DNA from: an uncultured Shimia sp.
GTDB lineage: Bacteria > Pseudomonadota > Alphaproteobacteria > Rhodobacterales > Rhodobacteraceae
Assembly (NCBI RefSeq): GCF_947493595.1
Contig: NZ_CANLRL010000001.1
Coordinates: forward strand, 1,054,001-1,118,000
Direction of reading: 5' to 3'
DNA: 64,000 bases
The position numbers were made by a program, and so were the translations under genes. The notes beneath the pieces are model-generated. The model was given only the letters and a program-made list of their open reading frames with translations. It had not been told where the DNA came from and did no database searches. Shown here piece by piece: positions 17,897 through 49,937 of the stretch. Within the stretch, counting starts at the first letter, position 1, and every line of letters starts with the position of its first letter.

Positions 17897-20202
17897 GCGC
17901 TGGAAATCCTGGCATGGACAGCTTCGGTTAGGTCGCTGAGTGAAAAAGGCTTGGGAAGAAAGCTGGAGTTTTCAATTCGCGCCTGATCATCGGAGAAACT
18001 GTCCTCGGCATAGCCGGATACAAAAATGACCGGCACGTTAGGATAATTTTCACGGGCCAGACGCACCCAGCTTGGCCCGTCCATCCCTGGCATAATCACA
18101 TCGCTGACAAATACGTCTATTTGGGGATGATCCGCATCCAACACGTCAAGCGCCTCTTCTCCTGAAGCCGCCTCAAGCACAGTGAACCCGCGCATCTTTA
18201 GCGCCCGGGTCGCAAAAGACCGCACGGGCGCCTCATCTTCCACCAGCAGCACAACGCCGCTATGCTGCACTTCCGGTAAGTCCGGACGCTTTCCAAGCTC
18301 CGGCGCCGCAACTTGTTCGGCAGCAGCACCATGTGCTGGGAACATCAGCGTAAAAGTGGTGCCGACCCCTTCGCTACTGTCCACAAAGATGTAGCCGCCT
18401 GTTTGTTTCACGATACCGTAGGCAGTACTCAAACCAAGACCAGTGCCTTCGCCAGTTTTCTTGGTGGTGAAAAACGGCTCAAAGACCTTTTGCAGCTTGT
18501 CTTGCGCGATGCCGATGCCTTGATCCGCTACGGTCACGGACACATAGTTGCCAACTGGAACAATCACGCGATCCCGCTCCAGCGGTGCATCCAGCTCAAC
18601 ACTTTCAGTGGTCACACGAATTTCACCACCGTCAGGCATGGCATCCCGCGCATTCACCACCAGGTTCATAAGCACCTGTTCCAATTGCCGTTTATCGGCG
18701 CGGATGGCCGGCAACACCGGATCATTGTTCAACGTCAATGCAACACGTTCTCCCACCAACCGGTTCAAAAGGTGGGTCAAATCCGCCAAAGTATTGCGCA
18801 GGTCCAGCACCTCGGGACGCAGGTTTTGCTTACGGGAAAACGCCAGCAACTGCCCAACCAACGCGGCGGCCCGGTTGGCGTTTTGGTTGATCTGAATGAG
18901 GTCCGCATAATCCGCATCACCTTGATCATGACGCAGTAGCAACAGGTCGCAATGCCCTGAAATCGCAGTCAAAAGGTTGTTGAAATCATGCGCCACGCCA
19001 CCTGCCAATTGGCCAATTGCCTGCATCTTTTGGCTTTGCACGAACTGGGCTTCCAACGACTTGAGTTCGGTTGCATCGCTCAAAACCGCAATCAAGGAGG
19101 TCTCGCCACCTTCCACCACACGGTTCAAACTGACCTGCACAATCACTTCCTTGTCGTCGCGCTTTAAACGCAAAAACTCGGATTGATTGACCGCCTTACC
19201 CTGAGCGGCCTCCATCAGCCAGTCCACAATCGACCGCCCCAACCCTTCCATCAAATCACCAATAAAGGACTTGGACGATATCTCCATATTCACCAGCGAA
19301 CGGGCTGCACGGTTAGCCAGAAGCACATCACCCGCAGGGTTAACCTTCAAAAGCGCAACCGGCAGTTCATCAAACTGTACCGCCCCGTCCCGCATCACAG
19401 GCACTTCGGTGGGCAGCAGATAGATTTCGCGACGCCCGGCCGTGGCCTCAAATTCGGCCACCAAACACTGCTGTTCCCCGTTTGATGTGTGCACAACTGT
19501 AGCACTGCGCAGATCCTGGACATCTGGGCCAAACACGTCCGCGATGGTTTTTTTGCGCTCTCCCAATAAATGTCGCGCTGCCGGATTCATAAACAGGACA
19601 GTACCGGAGCGCCCAACGGTTAGCATCGGCAACCGCGGCGCGCCGCCGGAATGTTGTGCGTCCGCGACCGGGCTGGTTCGCTGGATGCTCCACAACAGCA
19701 CACCAAATTCCAGCGCCTTGACCGTGAGTCGCATCATGGTTTCGCGAAGTGATAGTTCTTCCTCACATCGGCCATCAGAAAGGCAGCTGGCAATCATGTC
19801 ACGCACTTTTCCTTCGGCGTCCAACATTTGATCCGACAGAGCGTCGACCATTGTGTCGCGCGCGCCCATACCGGTCTCCATCGCAGCCTGATTGGCGTAG
19901 ATGATTTGACCTTCGGGGTTGGAAACAAATGTCAAATCGGAGGCATCTTCAAACATCCGCCGCAAAAGCGATACAGCCCGCATTTGCGCCGCCTTGCGGC
20001 GCAAGGACACCATCAAGCTCACCGCTGCGCCTAAACCAAGAAGACCGCTGGCAAAAACCATCGCAGCCCGCATCGGACCAGCCTGCAAAAGAACAGCCGT
20101 CACCACCATGACCAACGCGGCCAAGGCCAGGATTCCGGCATGATGAGGAGTGTCACCCAAATGGCGGGGAGCAGGCCCTTTGGCCTCTGTCGAATTGGAC
20201 AC
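17893..20202 (-). CDS. cckA: Hybrid sensor kinase CckA
   Basis: A 769-residue hybrid histidine kinase that feeds the CckA-ChpT-CtrA phosphorelay; in the Roseobacter group this controls motility, gene transfer agents and cell-cycle features. Two N-terminal membrane helices (about 23-40 and 46-66) are followed by PAS-like regions (about 75-170 and 190-260, then 275-380). The HisKA domain has the phospho-accepting His405 in GGVAHDFNNLLTAISGH. An HATPase domain and a C-terminal receiver follow, with Asp701 (FVSDVIMPG) and Lys751. The split GVAHDFNNLL motif is the CckA hallmark. The region upstream (20223-20271) holds a dyad with a CtrA-like site. Confidence 0.93.
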   Translation of the reverse strand: MSNSTEAKGPAPRHLGDTPHHAGILALAALVMVVTAVLLQAGPMRAAMVFASGLLGLGAAVSLMVSLRRKAAQMRAVSLLRRMFEDASDLTFVSNPEGQIIYANQAAMETGMGARDTMVDALSDQMLDAEGKVRDMIASCLSDGRCEEELSLRETMMRLTVKALEFGVLLWSIQRTSPVADAQHSGGAPRLPMLTVGRSGTVLFMNPAARHLLGERKKTIADVFGPDVQDLRSATVVHTSNGEQQCLVAEFEATAGRREIYLLPTEVPVMRDGAVQFDELPVALLKVNPAGDVLLANRAARSLVNMEISSKSFIGDLMEGLGRSIVDWLMEAAQGKAVNQSEFLRLKRDDKEVIVQVSLNRVVEGGETSLIAVLSDATELKSLEAQFVQSQKMQAIGQLAGGVAHDFNNLLTAISGHCDLLLLRHDQGDADYADLIQINQNANRAAALVGQLLAFSRKQNLRPEVLDLRNTLADLTHLLNRLVGERVALTLNNDPVLPAIRADKRQLEQVLMNLVVNARDAMPDGGEIRVTTESVELDAPLERDRVIVPVGNYVSVTVADQGIGIAQDKLQKVFEPFFTTKKTGEGTGLGLSTAYGIVKQTGGYIFVDSSEGVGTTFTLMFPAHGAAAEQVAAPELGKRPDLPEVQHSGVVLLVEDEAPVRSFATRALKMRGFTVLEAASGEEALDVLDADHPQIDVFVSDVIMPGMDGPSWVRLARENYPNVPVIFVSGYAEDSFSDDQARIENSSFLPKPFSLSDLTEAVHARISSA

Positions 20203-46011: not shown

Positions 46012-47037
46012 CTACCCATACATCTCCGCCAAATCCACGGTACCACGCGCGTTCAAATCGGCCTTATGCGCGCTAAGAAAACTCTTGGCCGCCGTCTGCC
46101 CCGCTTCTTTCAAATGAAGCAGAACCGAGGTCACAGGCCAGCTCTTGGTGGCGACCGACAAGCGGTTCATCAGCGCGTCATCCGCAATCATATGCACCTT
46201 CACCTCCCGCTTTTCTTCACGACTCAACGCACCTTGCGCAATCAGCTTTTGCACAAATGCAACGGCGCGCAGTTCACTCAACAGCGATGCATTAAAACTG
46301 ATCTCATTGATCCGGTTGCTGATCTGCTGCGGTGTCACCGGCAAAGTCTCCCGCTGCAACGGGTTGATATTCACAATCACCACATCTTCTGGCAGGTCCT
46401 GTCGGTACAGCGGCCATAATGATGGATTTCCGGTGTAACCACCATCCCAATACGCTTCGGTCTTGCCGGTGGTCTGATCAAACACATTCACCGCCTTAAA
46501 CATGGTTGGCAGACAGGCAGACGCCAACAGCGCATCGGTGCTGATCTCGCGCCCTTCAAACACCCGCGCTTTGCCGGACCGCACGTTTGTGGCACAGACA
46601 AACAGCTTCGGCCCGTCCTCGGCGCAGACTTGATCAAAGCTGAACTGATCGACAATGTCGCGCAGCGGATGCTCGTAAAGCGGCCCCATGGCGTAAGGCG
46701 AGGTCAACCGCTGCATCATATCCGCCGCCATAAACGGCCAGCTGTATTCCATCGCTCGGCTGACCAGCCCAGGCGGCACCGCCGCAAACCAGGCGTCCAT
46801 ACCCGGCACCTGCGCCGCGCCCATCTGCTGCCAGAACCAGTCGAGATTGGCCCGCGCGCCCTCACGCCCGCCTTGCAACAAACCGGCCTTCAATGCCGCG
46901 CCATTCATCGCGCAAGCCGAGGTGCCGGTGATCCCGGCAATCTCGATATCTTCGTCCTGCAACAGAACGTCCAAAACGCCCCAGGTGAAAGCCCCATGCG
47001 CGCCGCCACCCTGCAATGCCAGATTGATACGCTTCAT
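46012..47037 (-). CDS. Patatin-like phospholipase
   Basis: A 341-residue patatin-family hydrolase. The oxyanion glycines are GGGAHG (10-15), the nucleophile is Ser40 in GTSAC, and the dyad aspartate is Asp198 in WDGG. The usual G-x-S-x-G elbow here ends in cysteine rather than glycine (Cys42), an unusual substitution. It is cytoplasmic, with no signal peptide. In Rhodobacterales such a patatin often lies next to 3-hydroxybutyrate dehydrogenase, as here with bdhA 14 bases upstream, so a role in polyhydroxybutyrate granule or lipid turnover is inferred. Confidence 0.88.
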   Translation of the reverse strand: MKRINLALQGGGAHGAFTWGVLDVLLQDEDIEIAGITGTSACAMNGAALKAGLLQGGREGARANLDWFWQQMGAAQVPGMDAWFAAVPPGLVSRAMEYSWPFMAADMMQRLTSPYAMGPLYEHPLRDIVDQFSFDQVCAEDGPKLFVCATNVRSGKARVFEGREISTDALLASACLPTMFKAVNVFDQTTGKTEAYWDGGYTGNPSLWPLYRQDLPEDVVIVNINPLQRETLPVTPQQISNRINEISFNASLLSELRAVAFVQKLIAQGALSREEKREVKVHMIADDALMNRLSVATKSWPVTSVLLHLKEAGQTAAKSFLSAHKADLNARGTVDLAEMYG

Positions 47038-47051
47038 GAGGCCGCTTCCCT

Positions 47052-47825
47052 TTACAATGCGGTCCAGCCGCCATCCACGCTGATGGTGGTGCCGGTGATC
47101 TGCGCCGCCGCATCAGACGCCAAAAAGCACACCGTGCCGCCCAGGTGCTCTACCGTTGCAAACTCGCGGCTAGGTTGACGCTCCAGCATCACCTTCTTGA
47201 TCACCTCGTCGCGACCCATGTTGTATTTCTCCATGGTGTCCGGGATCTGCGCCTCCACCAGCGGCGTCAGCACATAGCCCGGGCAAATCGCATTACAGGT
47301 GATCGGCTCTTCCGCCGTTTCCAACGCAACAGTCTTGGTCATGCCCACCACACCATGCTTGGCCGCAACATACGCCGACTTAAACGGCGACGCTGTCAAA
47401 CCATGCGCACTGGCAATGTTGATCACCCGGCCCCAGCCGCGTTTGCGCATATGTGGCAGCGCAGCCGCTGTGGTGTGAAACGCAGAGTTCATATTTATCG
47501 CAATGATGGCGTCCCACTTCTCTACAGGGAACTCATCAATCGGCGCCACGTGTTGAATGCCAGCGTTGTTCACCAGCACATCACAGCCACCTGCATCCTC
47601 GATCAGCTGGCGACATTGGTCCCCCTTGGACATATCCGCCGCGATGTATCGTGCTTTTACGCCGAACTCCGCCGCAATCTCGGCCGCCAGCGCATGATCT
47701 TCGTCTCGGTTGGTAAAAGAATTCAGCACAACATCCGCTCCAGCCCGCGCCAATTCCCGCGCCACGCCCAGACCGATTCCCGAATTGCTGCCCGTCACAA
47801 TTGCCGTCTTGCCCTGCATTGTCAT
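47052..47825 (-). CDS. bdhA: 3-hydroxybutyrate dehydrogenase
   Basis: A 257-residue short-chain dehydrogenase interconverting 3-hydroxybutyrate and acetoacetate with NAD in polyhydroxybutyrate use. TGSNSGIGLG is the cofactor motif. The catalytic set is Ser in NIASAHG and Y-x3-K in SAYVAAKHG. The closing VDGGWTAL is the BdhA C-terminus. ATG 47825 is preceded by AGGA at eight bases; another ATG two codons later is possible. The longer open frame to 48065 crosses a terminator and is rejected. It overlaps nothing but lies 14 bases upstream of the patatin gene. Confidence 0.93.
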   Translation of the reverse strand: MTMQGKTAIVTGSNSGIGLGVARELARAGADVVLNSFTNRDEDHALAAEIAAEFGVKARYIAADMSKGDQCRQLIEDAGGCDVLVNNAGIQHVAPIDEFPVEKWDAIIAINMNSAFHTTAAALPHMRKRGWGRVINIASAHGLTASPFKSAYVAAKHGVVGMTKTVALETAEEPITCNAICPGYVLTPLVEAQIPDTMEKYNMGRDEVIKKVMLERQPSREFATVEHLGGTVCFLASDAAAQITGTTISVDGGWTAL

Positions 47826-47930: not shown

Positions 47931-47958
47931 AAAAAAAACGCCCGCGCGAAGCGGGCGT
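47931..47958 (-). terminator. Intrinsic terminator on the minus strand, not behind any coding gene
   Basis: An 8-bp GC stem (ACGCCCGC/GCGGGCGT, loop GCGAA on the plus strand reading) with an eight-base T tract on the minus strand. It lies upstream of bdhA, so it ends a transcript starting to the right. Confidence 0.88.
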
Positions 47959-48006
47959 AAAGTTATTGAGGCAGGTTTCATACAGGCAAGAAACCTATCG
48001 AGCAGT
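47931..48006 (-). ncRNA. Candidate small RNA with own promoter and terminator
   Basis: On the minus strand, -35 TTGGAG (48041-48036), 17 bases and -10 TATAAA (48018-48013) would start a transcript near 48006. It would contain hairpin AGGTTTC-N10-GAAACCT (47996-47973), then an intrinsic terminator ACGCCCGC-GCGAA-GCGGGCGT (47958-47938) with eight T ending at 47931. No reading frame of credible coding type fits. The transcript would be about 76 nt. Its targets are not readable. Confidence 0.55.
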
Positions 48007-48119
48007 GATCCCTTTATAAGCGTTAGTGCGCCGGTCTCCAAGCTAAAAGTTTGATAAGCCACCAATACCCCGCTACTTTTTGGGTAAGCAAAAAACGAAC
48101 CAACAGGATTGTTCAGGCA

Positions 48120-49937
48120 ATGACACCAATACGTTTCCCCAAAGTCACCAGTGCCGCCACGGCGCTGGCGCTAACACTGGCCGGCACGCAAACCTTCGCA
48201 GAGCCCCAGCATGGCATCGCTATGTATGGTGATCCCGCTCTGCCACATGATTTTGTGTCACTGCCCTACGCCAACCCCGATGCCCCCAAAGGAGGACGCG
48301 TTGTCACTGGCAACGGTGGCAGTTTTGATTCTCTTAACCCTTTTGTCCGGAAAGGCACCGTGCCGTGGCAACTCAGGTTTTTCGGGTATGAGTCCCTCAT
48401 GGGGCGCAACTGGGATGAACCATTCGCCCTATACGGGCTTCTAGCCGAATCGATTGAGACGCCAGAGGACCGTTCCTGGGTGGAATTCACCCTGCGTAAA
48501 GAAGCCCGATTCTCTGATGGCAGCCCGGTGACCGTCGAAGACGTGATCTGGTCTTATGAAACCCTCGGCACAGTTGGCCATCCCCGCTACCGCGGATTTT
48601 GGGGCAAAGTGGGCAGCATCGAAGCCACGGGCGAGCGATCCGTGCGCATCACTTTCAACACCGAAGACCGCGAGTTGGCCCTGATCGCCGGCCTGCGCCC
48701 CATCCTGCAAAAGGCGCAGTTTGACGGCAAATCCTTTGAAGACATCACCCTTCAAGACGTCCCGCTTGGAACCGCGCCCTATGTGGTCTCCGACTTTGAA
48801 GCAGGCCGCTTTGTCACCCTATCGCGCGACGAAGACTACTGGGGCAAGGACCTACCGTTTCGCAAAGGCACCCACAACTTTGACGAGATCAAAATTGACT
48901 TCTTTGGCGATGGCGATGTCATGTTTGAGGCCTTCAAAGCAGGAGAGATCTCCTTCACCCGCGAATTCAACGCTGAGAAATGGGCTGCTAACTATGATTT
49001 CCCGCTCGCTCAATCCGGCGACATTGTGAAATCGGAAATCCCTCACCAAAAACCTTCCGGCATCACAGGGTTGGTGATGAACACCCGCAAGGCGCCACTG
49101 GATGACATCCGCGTGCGCGACGCGCTGATGCATGTCTTCAACTTCGAATTCATCAACGACACGATGACCGGCTCCCGCCAACCGCGCATCACGTCTTTCT
49201 TCTCCGGCTCCCTTTTGGGCATGGACGAAGGCCCGGCCCAAGGGCGCGTGGCGGAATTCCTGCAACCCTTTGCCGACCAGCTGCCCCCGGAAGCGCTGGC
49301 AGGCTATTCCTTGCCAAAATCTGACGGCTCCATCCGCAACCGCGCCAACCTGCGCAAAGCCATGGCCCTGATGGAGGACGCGGGTTACTCCGTGGTGGAC
49401 GGCAAGTTGCAGAACGCTGACGGCGATGTGCTCACACTGGAAATCCTGCTCAAGCAGGGCGATTCCGAAAACAAAGCCATCGTCGACATCTACTCAAAAG
49501 CCCTCGAAGGTCTTGGTGTGGAATTGACCGTAACCCAGGTGGACGGCCCGCAATACACCGAACGTACTGCCGCCTTTGACTTCGACATCACCAACTACCG
49601 CCGCGCCCTGTCGCTCTCTCCTGGCAACGAGCAGAATCTCTACTGGGGGTCCGCTGCGGCCGATCAAACCGGCTCGCGCAATTTGATGGGTGTAAAATCT
49701 CCCGCCATCGACGCCATGATCAACGAGATGCTGACCTCCACATCGCAAGACGACTTTGTCGCCGCGACCAAGGCGCTCGACCGCGTGCTGACCTCTGGCC
49801 GTTACGTGATTCCAGTGTGGAAATATGCCGTGGGTCGCATCGCCCACCAGAAAGAGATGCACTACTCCAAAGACAACCTACCAATCTACGGCGACGGGGT
49901 TGAATGGCTGCCAAGTGTCTGGTGGCATCAAGACTAA
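48120..49937 (+). CDS. Family 5 extracellular solute-binding protein (oligopeptide, YejA-like)
   Basis: A 605-residue periplasmic substrate-binding protein of ABC peptide transporters, with signal peptide about 1-27 (QTFA-E). The HGIAMYGDPALPHDFVSLPYANPDAPKGG opening and the WVEFTLRKEARFSDGSPVTVEDVIWS segment (cited as family features) are typical of the YejA/microcin C-type subgroup. No permease or ATPase gene is adjacent, so it is solitary here and must borrow a transporter or have another role. ATG 48120 was chosen because it places the signal peptide at the N-terminus; 23 more codons upstream are open. Confidence 0.92.
   Translation: MTPIRFPKVTSAATALALTLAGTQTFAEPQHGIAMYGDPALPHDFVSLPYANPDAPKGGRVVTGNGGSFDSLNPFVRKGTVPWQLRFFGYESLMGRNWDEPFALYGLLAESIETPEDRSWVEFTLRKEARFSDGSPVTVEDVIWSYETLGTVGHPRYRGFWGKVGSIEATGERSVRITFNTEDRELALIAGLRPILQKAQFDGKSFEDITLQDVPLGTAPYVVSDFEAGRFVTLSRDEDYWGKDLPFRKGTHNFDEIKIDFFGDGDVMFEAFKAGEISFTREFNAEKWAANYDFPLAQSGDIVKSEIPHQKPSGITGLVMNTRKAPLDDIRVRDALMHVFNFEFINDTMTGSRQPRITSFFSGSLLGMDEGPAQGRVAEFLQPFADQLPPEALAGYSLPKSDGSIRNRANLRKAMALMEDAGYSVVDGKLQNADGDVLTLEILLKQGDSENKAIVDIYSKALEGLGVELTVTQVDGPQYTERTAAFDFDITNYRRALSLSPGNEQNLYWGSAAADQTGSRNLMGVKSPAIDAMINEMLTSTSQDDFVAATKALDRVLTSGRYVIPVWKYAVGRIAHQKEMHYSKDNLPIYGDGVEWLPSVWWHQD

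Follow-up and report, generated by a model that had tools for sequence, protein, structure and literature searches.

In R. sphaeroides, the mraZ leader at the head of the dcw operon is itself a small RNA, UpsM (RSs0682). The report on UpsM describes a 206-nt RNA that undergoes cleavage under stress, with a known 130-nt 3' fragment. By the same account it ranks first in abundance among R. sphaeroides sRNAs, contributing about 60% of those bound to Hfq, and its 5' region, R1, is hardly conserved (PMC5089854). UpsM is bound by another small RNA, StsR (RSs0827). According to the paper on StsR, this 72-nt sRNA is under RpoHI/RpoHII control, makes available an RNase E site that is otherwise double-stranded within UpsM, and targets the rpoE mRNA from 10 nt after the GTG, at about -18 (PMC8307010). 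We analyzed a small RNA locus within a 64,000-nt stretch of DNA from an uncultured Shimia sp. (the window). Like StsR, the RNA is short, has its own promoter and is complementary to the UpsM/dcw leader. It also has an AGGTTTC motif in common with UpsM, which likewise occurs in Rhodobacteraceae, and UpsM is its predicted partner rather than a relative.

A preliminary description of this region had proposed a stand-alone small RNA gene on the minus strand, lying upstream of bdhA and divergent from a peptide-binding gene, with a -10/-35 pair at 17-base spacing, an AGGTTTC...GAAACCT hairpin, a terminator and a transcript of about 76 nt. Each of these elements is present (Table 1), the neighbors are as described, and the predicted transcript has the proposed length. 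Like trans-encoded sRNAs of the Hfq type, the locus has the make-up of a stand-alone transcription unit with a Rho-independent terminator, and BLAST finds the full-length gene in single copy in its own genome. The block 5' of the -35 element could be an UP element or a regulator site in common with the divergent transporter gene. On the far side of bdhA, the minus-strand gene at 46012-47037, whose protein begins MKRINLALQGGGAHGAF, looks patatin-like by eye and lies 3' of bdhA in several relatives; it had no NCBIfam match.

Table 1. Features of the small RNA locus and of a second conserved RNA (window coordinates unless a genome and contig are named).
Feature	Coordinates	Strand	Remarks
Small RNA	47931..48006	(-)	76 nt, from predicted start (~48006) to end of T-run (47931); length 74-78 nt in 90/90 loci
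41-nt core	47966..48006	(-)	identical in 111/125 loci read
Hairpin 1 (AGGTTTC...GAAACCT)	47973..47996	(-)	invariant in 24 sequences tested
Terminator stem-loop, intrinsic	47938..47958	(-)	4/8 pairs changed on both sides, 24 genera; none broken
Terminator T-run, eight T	47931..47938	(-)	from sequence; terminator GC-rich
-10 element TATAAA	48013..48018	(-)	17-base spacer to -35
-35 element TTGGAG	48036..48041	(-)	CTTGG in 80/90 loci
Upstream block TCAAACTTTTAG	48043..48054	(-)	5' of -35; TCAAACTTTT in 75/90 loci
Stretch complementary to UpsM site A	47972..47988	(-)	loop and 3' arm of hairpin 1; sequence complementarity
Stretch complementary to UpsM site B (CGAGCAG)	47999..48005	(-)	RNA 5' end; sequence complementarity
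Downstream neighbor, 3-hydroxybutyrate dehydrogenase (bdhA)	47052..47825	(-)	TIGR01963 368 bits, cut-off 307; tblastn 73/90 loci
Divergent neighbor, ABC substrate-binding protein	48120..49937	(+)	peptide/nickel-type, best models below cut-offs; tblastn 88/90 loci
Second RNA (core TTCACTGTCCCTCGTTCCG)	G051:C4:858053-858139		G051 copy in L259, ~18053-18139
Second RNA, locus L292 of own genome (core TTCACTGTCCCTCGTTCCG)	G000:C1:575500-576000		

Taken by itself, the single sequence would be modest to weak evidence for a gene. A promoter scan with a consensus returned no sites between positions 47000 and 49000 of the window, the same interval held four terminator-like sites against 2.4 expected, and the fold of the whole RNA stretch gave a z score of only -1.46. 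Conservation settles what the single sequence leaves weak, and for this reason we regard the gene as real. A BLAST search of 198 genomes from the family, one for each genus and with the source genome among them, detected the RNA in 193, with E values of 2.8e-14 or better. The stretch matched 194 of these genomes, and the match in G166 was only 20 nt long and resembled the UpsM site, hence the count of 193; a second search covered 40 weak or negative genomes. The five genomes in which BLAST did not find the RNA (G033, G133, G147, G155 and G166) are 71-92% complete. In a second draw of high-quality genomes from the order, all 195 carried the RNA, and all 195 belong to this family.

We read 125 loci from the 193 genomes, comprising 90 better-scoring loci among the matches listed and 35 weaker ones. 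All 90 better-scoring loci and 21 of the 35 weaker ones agree exactly over the first 41 nt of the RNA, and the core is also identical in Cereibacter johrii, Luteovulum azotoformans and Cereibacter ovatus. TTG and TA(T/C) boxes stand at near-constant spacing in 90/90 loci. The promoter boxes, the core and the T-run thus occur together in every one of these 90 loci, each from a different genus, as expected for the stand-alone RNA that had been proposed. The preliminary description had also called for a covariance search with the two hairpins. In 24 aligned copies, the terminator stem covaries, with changes on both sides at four of eight pairs and none broken; hairpin 1 is invariant in 24 sequences and therefore permits no covariation test. 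A covariance model run under stricter filters against 385 genomes of the class matched 31, in output that names mostly genomes with a match. Five matches exceeded 100 bits, and all five are from family members. The remaining 26, outside the family and at 34.4 bits or less, were judged as a group by score and are taken as chance terminator matches. From these results together, the locus is best read as a stand-alone small RNA, about 76 nt long. Identity over 41 nt in 111 of the 125 genera read amounts to extreme conservation among trans-acting sRNAs, and identifies the RNA as a core regulator without an Rfam entry.

Known RNA families were rejected as an identity for the locus. An Rfam 15 search of the window found only two tRNAs, and no family reached its gathering score for the RNA. 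The alphaproteobacterial sRNA mmgR/suhB (RF00519), which also combines a small hairpin with a terminator, gave a weak match of 24.4 bits, far below its gathering score of 41, and unrelated terminator-bearing families scored nearly alike. mmgR/suhB is linked to polyhydroxybutyrate granules, and the present locus likewise adjoins a PHB-related gene. A search of the accessible literature with pieces of the core sequence returned no match. In a study of Paracoccus denitrificans, two RNAs of similar size, "intergenic 60" (80 nt) and "intergenic 134" (84 nt), are described as expressed and conserved in many Rhodobacteraceae (PMC5107571); we compared them with the RNA by description only. Either of these, or one of the trans-sRNAs listed in a report on R. 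pomeroyi (PMC4809877), may be the same RNA, already published without a name. The word "new" in the preliminary description thus holds for the lack of an Rfam family, although published RNA-seq lists may already include the RNA. What appears novel beyond that description, as judged from sequence comparison, is the extreme family-wide conservation and the complementarity to the UpsM/dcw leader.

This complementarity appears as the second-best BLAST match to the RNA in its own genome, a 20-nt antisense stretch (95%, E = 0.106, contig C10) that lies about 200 nt upstream of mraZ (mraZ at G000:C10:80896) and is not significant alone. A perfect complement to the core of at least 12 nt is present in 30 of 38 mraZ leaders, with L179 and L184, which are cut by contig ends, scored as misses. 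The longest perfect complement in 333 unrelated control windows was 11 nt. Two sites can be recognized. Of 47 leaders (the 38 minus L179, L184 and the near-duplicate L104, plus 12 more), 39 contain site A, at about nt 53-73 of UpsM, with at least 13 of its 17 letters; 4 of 940 mononucleotide-shuffled leaders reached this level. Among these 39 leaders, which were chosen for having site A, its columns are 74-100% conserved, compared to 33-69% in the 20 columns upstream. Site B (CGAGCAG, UpsM nt 108-114), some 35 nt beyond site A, occurs in 28/38 leaders, and in 24/38 together with a complement of at least 12 nt. Because site B belongs to a more widely conserved leader stretch, its conservation has another sufficient cause.

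Three genomes (G059, G008 and G029) carry the RNA and have no recognizable site A in the leader; five further leaders of the 47 fall below 13/17 and hold gapped or shorter versions. The most divergent RNA is that of G029; here both partners of one pair have changed, with AATGCTCG at the RNA 5' end and CGAGCATA in the leader. The changed pair barely improves the total energy (-32.2 vs -31.3), and the leader match lies at -241, compared to -129 to -202 as a rule elsewhere. Plain duplex energies separated leaders from controls poorly, since most leaders ranged from -38 to -51 and the best control reached -40.1. When corrected for accessibility, the energy of the RNA with UpsM nt 53-73 was -15.8, and 1 of 25 shuffles was as good. 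When UpsM was modeled for G051, a genome resembling R. sphaeroides 2.4.1, most of site A was single-stranded and the only exception was a short hairpin. We infer from these comparisons that the RNA pairs with UpsM. Site A lies within R1, yet it occurs repeatedly across the family, with a match in a second RNA.

We therefore propose that the locus encodes a trans-acting sRNA of about 76 nt, with its own promoter and terminator, that base-pairs with the mraZ/dcw leader (UpsM) and alters its stability or read-through; we would give this proposal an even chance of being right. Transcription would start at this promoter and stop at this terminator. Its nt 19-35, which form the loop and 3' arm of the hairpin, would pair with site A, and the free 5' end (nt 1-8) would anchor at site B. 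Because the AGGTTTC of the RNA 5' arm is also present in site A, the pairing would proceed by hairpin invasion. As the most likely result, UpsM and the dcw leader would change in stability or be read through to a different extent, and division-gene output would be tied to the condition that switches on the RNA promoter. Transcription in this organism, Hfq binding, the RNA-UpsM duplex and an effect on dcw are predictions, which extend the observed anatomy, conservation and recurrent complementarity. The promoter could be read by housekeeping or heat-shock-type sigma factors. TTG and TAT are reported as the boxes recognized by RpoHI/RpoHII (PMC10673084), and the TTGG and TATAA of the RNA fit such a promoter; a sigma-70 promoter fits them equally.

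Release of the 130-nt UpsM fragment in R. sphaeroides requires a cut in the strand immediately 3' of site A. Around the point where this fragment must start, nt 72-83 pair with nt 4-15 in the UpsM fold. When sites A and B were blocked in the R. sphaeroides-like leader, the mean unpaired probability of nt 74-79 stayed at 0.17. The cut strand is not opened, and therefore the pairing is not predicted to trigger cleavage. This outcome fits a model with the same pairing and the roles reversed, in which UpsM, plentiful in growing cells, is a sponge that ties up the RNA. The real targets would then be mRNAs, and the RNA would be freed for them in stationary phase, once UpsM has been degraded by RNase E through the action of StsR. 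The roughly 60% share of UpsM among Hfq-bound sRNA in R. sphaeroides and its cleavage under stress (PMC5089854) would suit a sponge. Sites A and B together cover the 5' end, loop and 3' arm of the RNA, and the near-invariant 41-nt core suggests many partners. The pairing alone gives no direction, however, and we view the sponge as a strong alternative that is nonetheless well short of an even chance.

We also considered whether the RNA is the ortholog of StsR itself, which seems unlikely. The predicted length of 72-76 nt, the intrinsic terminator, the TTG and TAT boxes and the match to UpsM all agree with the description of StsR, whose reported length is 72 nt (PMC8307010), but the boxes would suit a sigma-70 promoter as well. 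We set this identity aside because another locus, at 858 kb in G051, fits the rpoE target better. With accessibility taken into account and C. johrii rpoE as a stand-in (the parts of G051 searched gave only a 24% match), the RNA of the 858-kb locus pairs at +4 to +27 with -13.2, and 2 of 25 shuffles were as good, whereas the best value for the present RNA was -5.1, with 25/25 shuffles as good. Pairing from 10 nt after the GTG was thus not found for the present RNA with this stand-in. Plain duplex energies were uninformative for its pairing with rpoE, being driven by GC content. The 858-kb RNA also pairs with UpsM nt 9-25 (-15.4, 0/25 shuffles as good), and in relatives it has a CTTT...CCTATCT promoter. 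Conversely, it is predicted at about 87 nt rather than 72, and its -10 element in G051, CCCATGTTA, differs from the one typical of its relatives.

Genome position may point the same way. The present RNA lies at 1,444 kb in G051, between the same two neighbors as in the window. Repeats of what we take to be the CcsR motif (presumably the former RSs0680) and UpsM (RSs0682) are 3 kb apart in this genome, at 692-695 kb. From this spacing, RSs numbers seem to be positional, which would place RSs0827 at about 842 kb. The 858-kb RNA is roughly 16 kb from this expected position, and the present RNA is at 1444 kb. A gene count that tested the numbering gave 124 genes against 145 expected, using a crude gene finder, and a literature search for RSs numbers near 1400 found no match. 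A ChrR family search of G051 also had no match, an absence that we assume to be unexpected for R. sphaeroides 2.4.1. Blocking UpsM nt 9-25 removes the nt 72-83 stem, much of which re-pairs, and the unpaired probability of nt 74-79 rises only from 0.17 to 0.22. The published statement on the RNase E site therefore hardly separates the two loci in this model. On balance, and with StsR compared by description, the 858-kb RNA is probably StsR and the present RNA a separate UpsM partner, mainly because of the rpoE fit and the position. StsR is probably a different gene: the 858-kb RNA is predicted to pair with UpsM nt 9-25 and rpoE, the present RNA with sites A and B and not with rpoE. Of 36 leaders, three (those of C. 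johrii, L. azotoformans and G051) show an 11-nt match of the 858-kb locus at the 5' end of UpsM, unlike site A, which is found across the family.

The second RNA, the probable StsR, is itself widespread: DNA similar to it was found in 73 of 80 genomes tested, at E values of 0.1 or better and with many matches weak. It had no Rfam match at gathering score. A complement of 9-11 nt to its core occurs in 14 of 36 mraZ leaders. Eight of these 14 complements lie in the mraZ ribosome-binding zone and not in UpsM (L101, L171, L182, L187, L192, L194, L197 and L198), at -18 to -25 from the mraZ HMM start. Separately, the minus strand of G051:C4 carries 14 CCTCCTCCC motifs, arrayed as seven pairs, at 3 kb from UpsM (L256, ~691717-692430). 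The array resembles what we take to be the motif of the CcsR sRNAs, which have four published units.

It is also conceivable that the trans-acting sRNA is real but acts on other mRNAs only, its match to UpsM being incidental. The core is conserved beyond the demands of the two sites, and nt 9-18 and 36-41 belong to neither. Yet the complement recurs at a similar place in the leader in most genera sampled, and above controls, which makes coincidence improbable. Least credible is that the RNA is a cis-acting leader or attenuator of bdhA, or a coding 5' extension of it: the RNA does precede bdhA and share its strand, and the bdhA frame of the window stays open through it, but tblastn did not find bdhA beside the RNA in 17/90 loci (some fetched stretches being short), conservation is of nucleotides rather than codons, with indels in the 3' part of the RNA, and the distance, where bdhA was found, varies from 156 to 1312 nt, which argues against both versions. 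The distances spread over all three frames (70 of 73 used, with L009, L032 and L070 excluded), and the coding extension was rejected.

The RNA is thus a candidate partner of UpsM beyond StsR. A broader proposal, which we hold tentatively and at slightly less than even confidence, is that it forms part of an ancient RNA-RNA circuit of the Rhodobacteraceae, in which a near-invariant sRNA faces a UpsM leader, both having retained the two complementary sites in the majority of the genera sampled. In Cereibacter, contact between StsR and the 5' end of UpsM would then have been added later. The lasting role of UpsM would be to bind the RNA, as its target or as its sponge, and thereby to link division-gene expression to the other targets of the RNA. 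Such a circuit would matter for understanding the tuning of division genes in a large family of bacteria.
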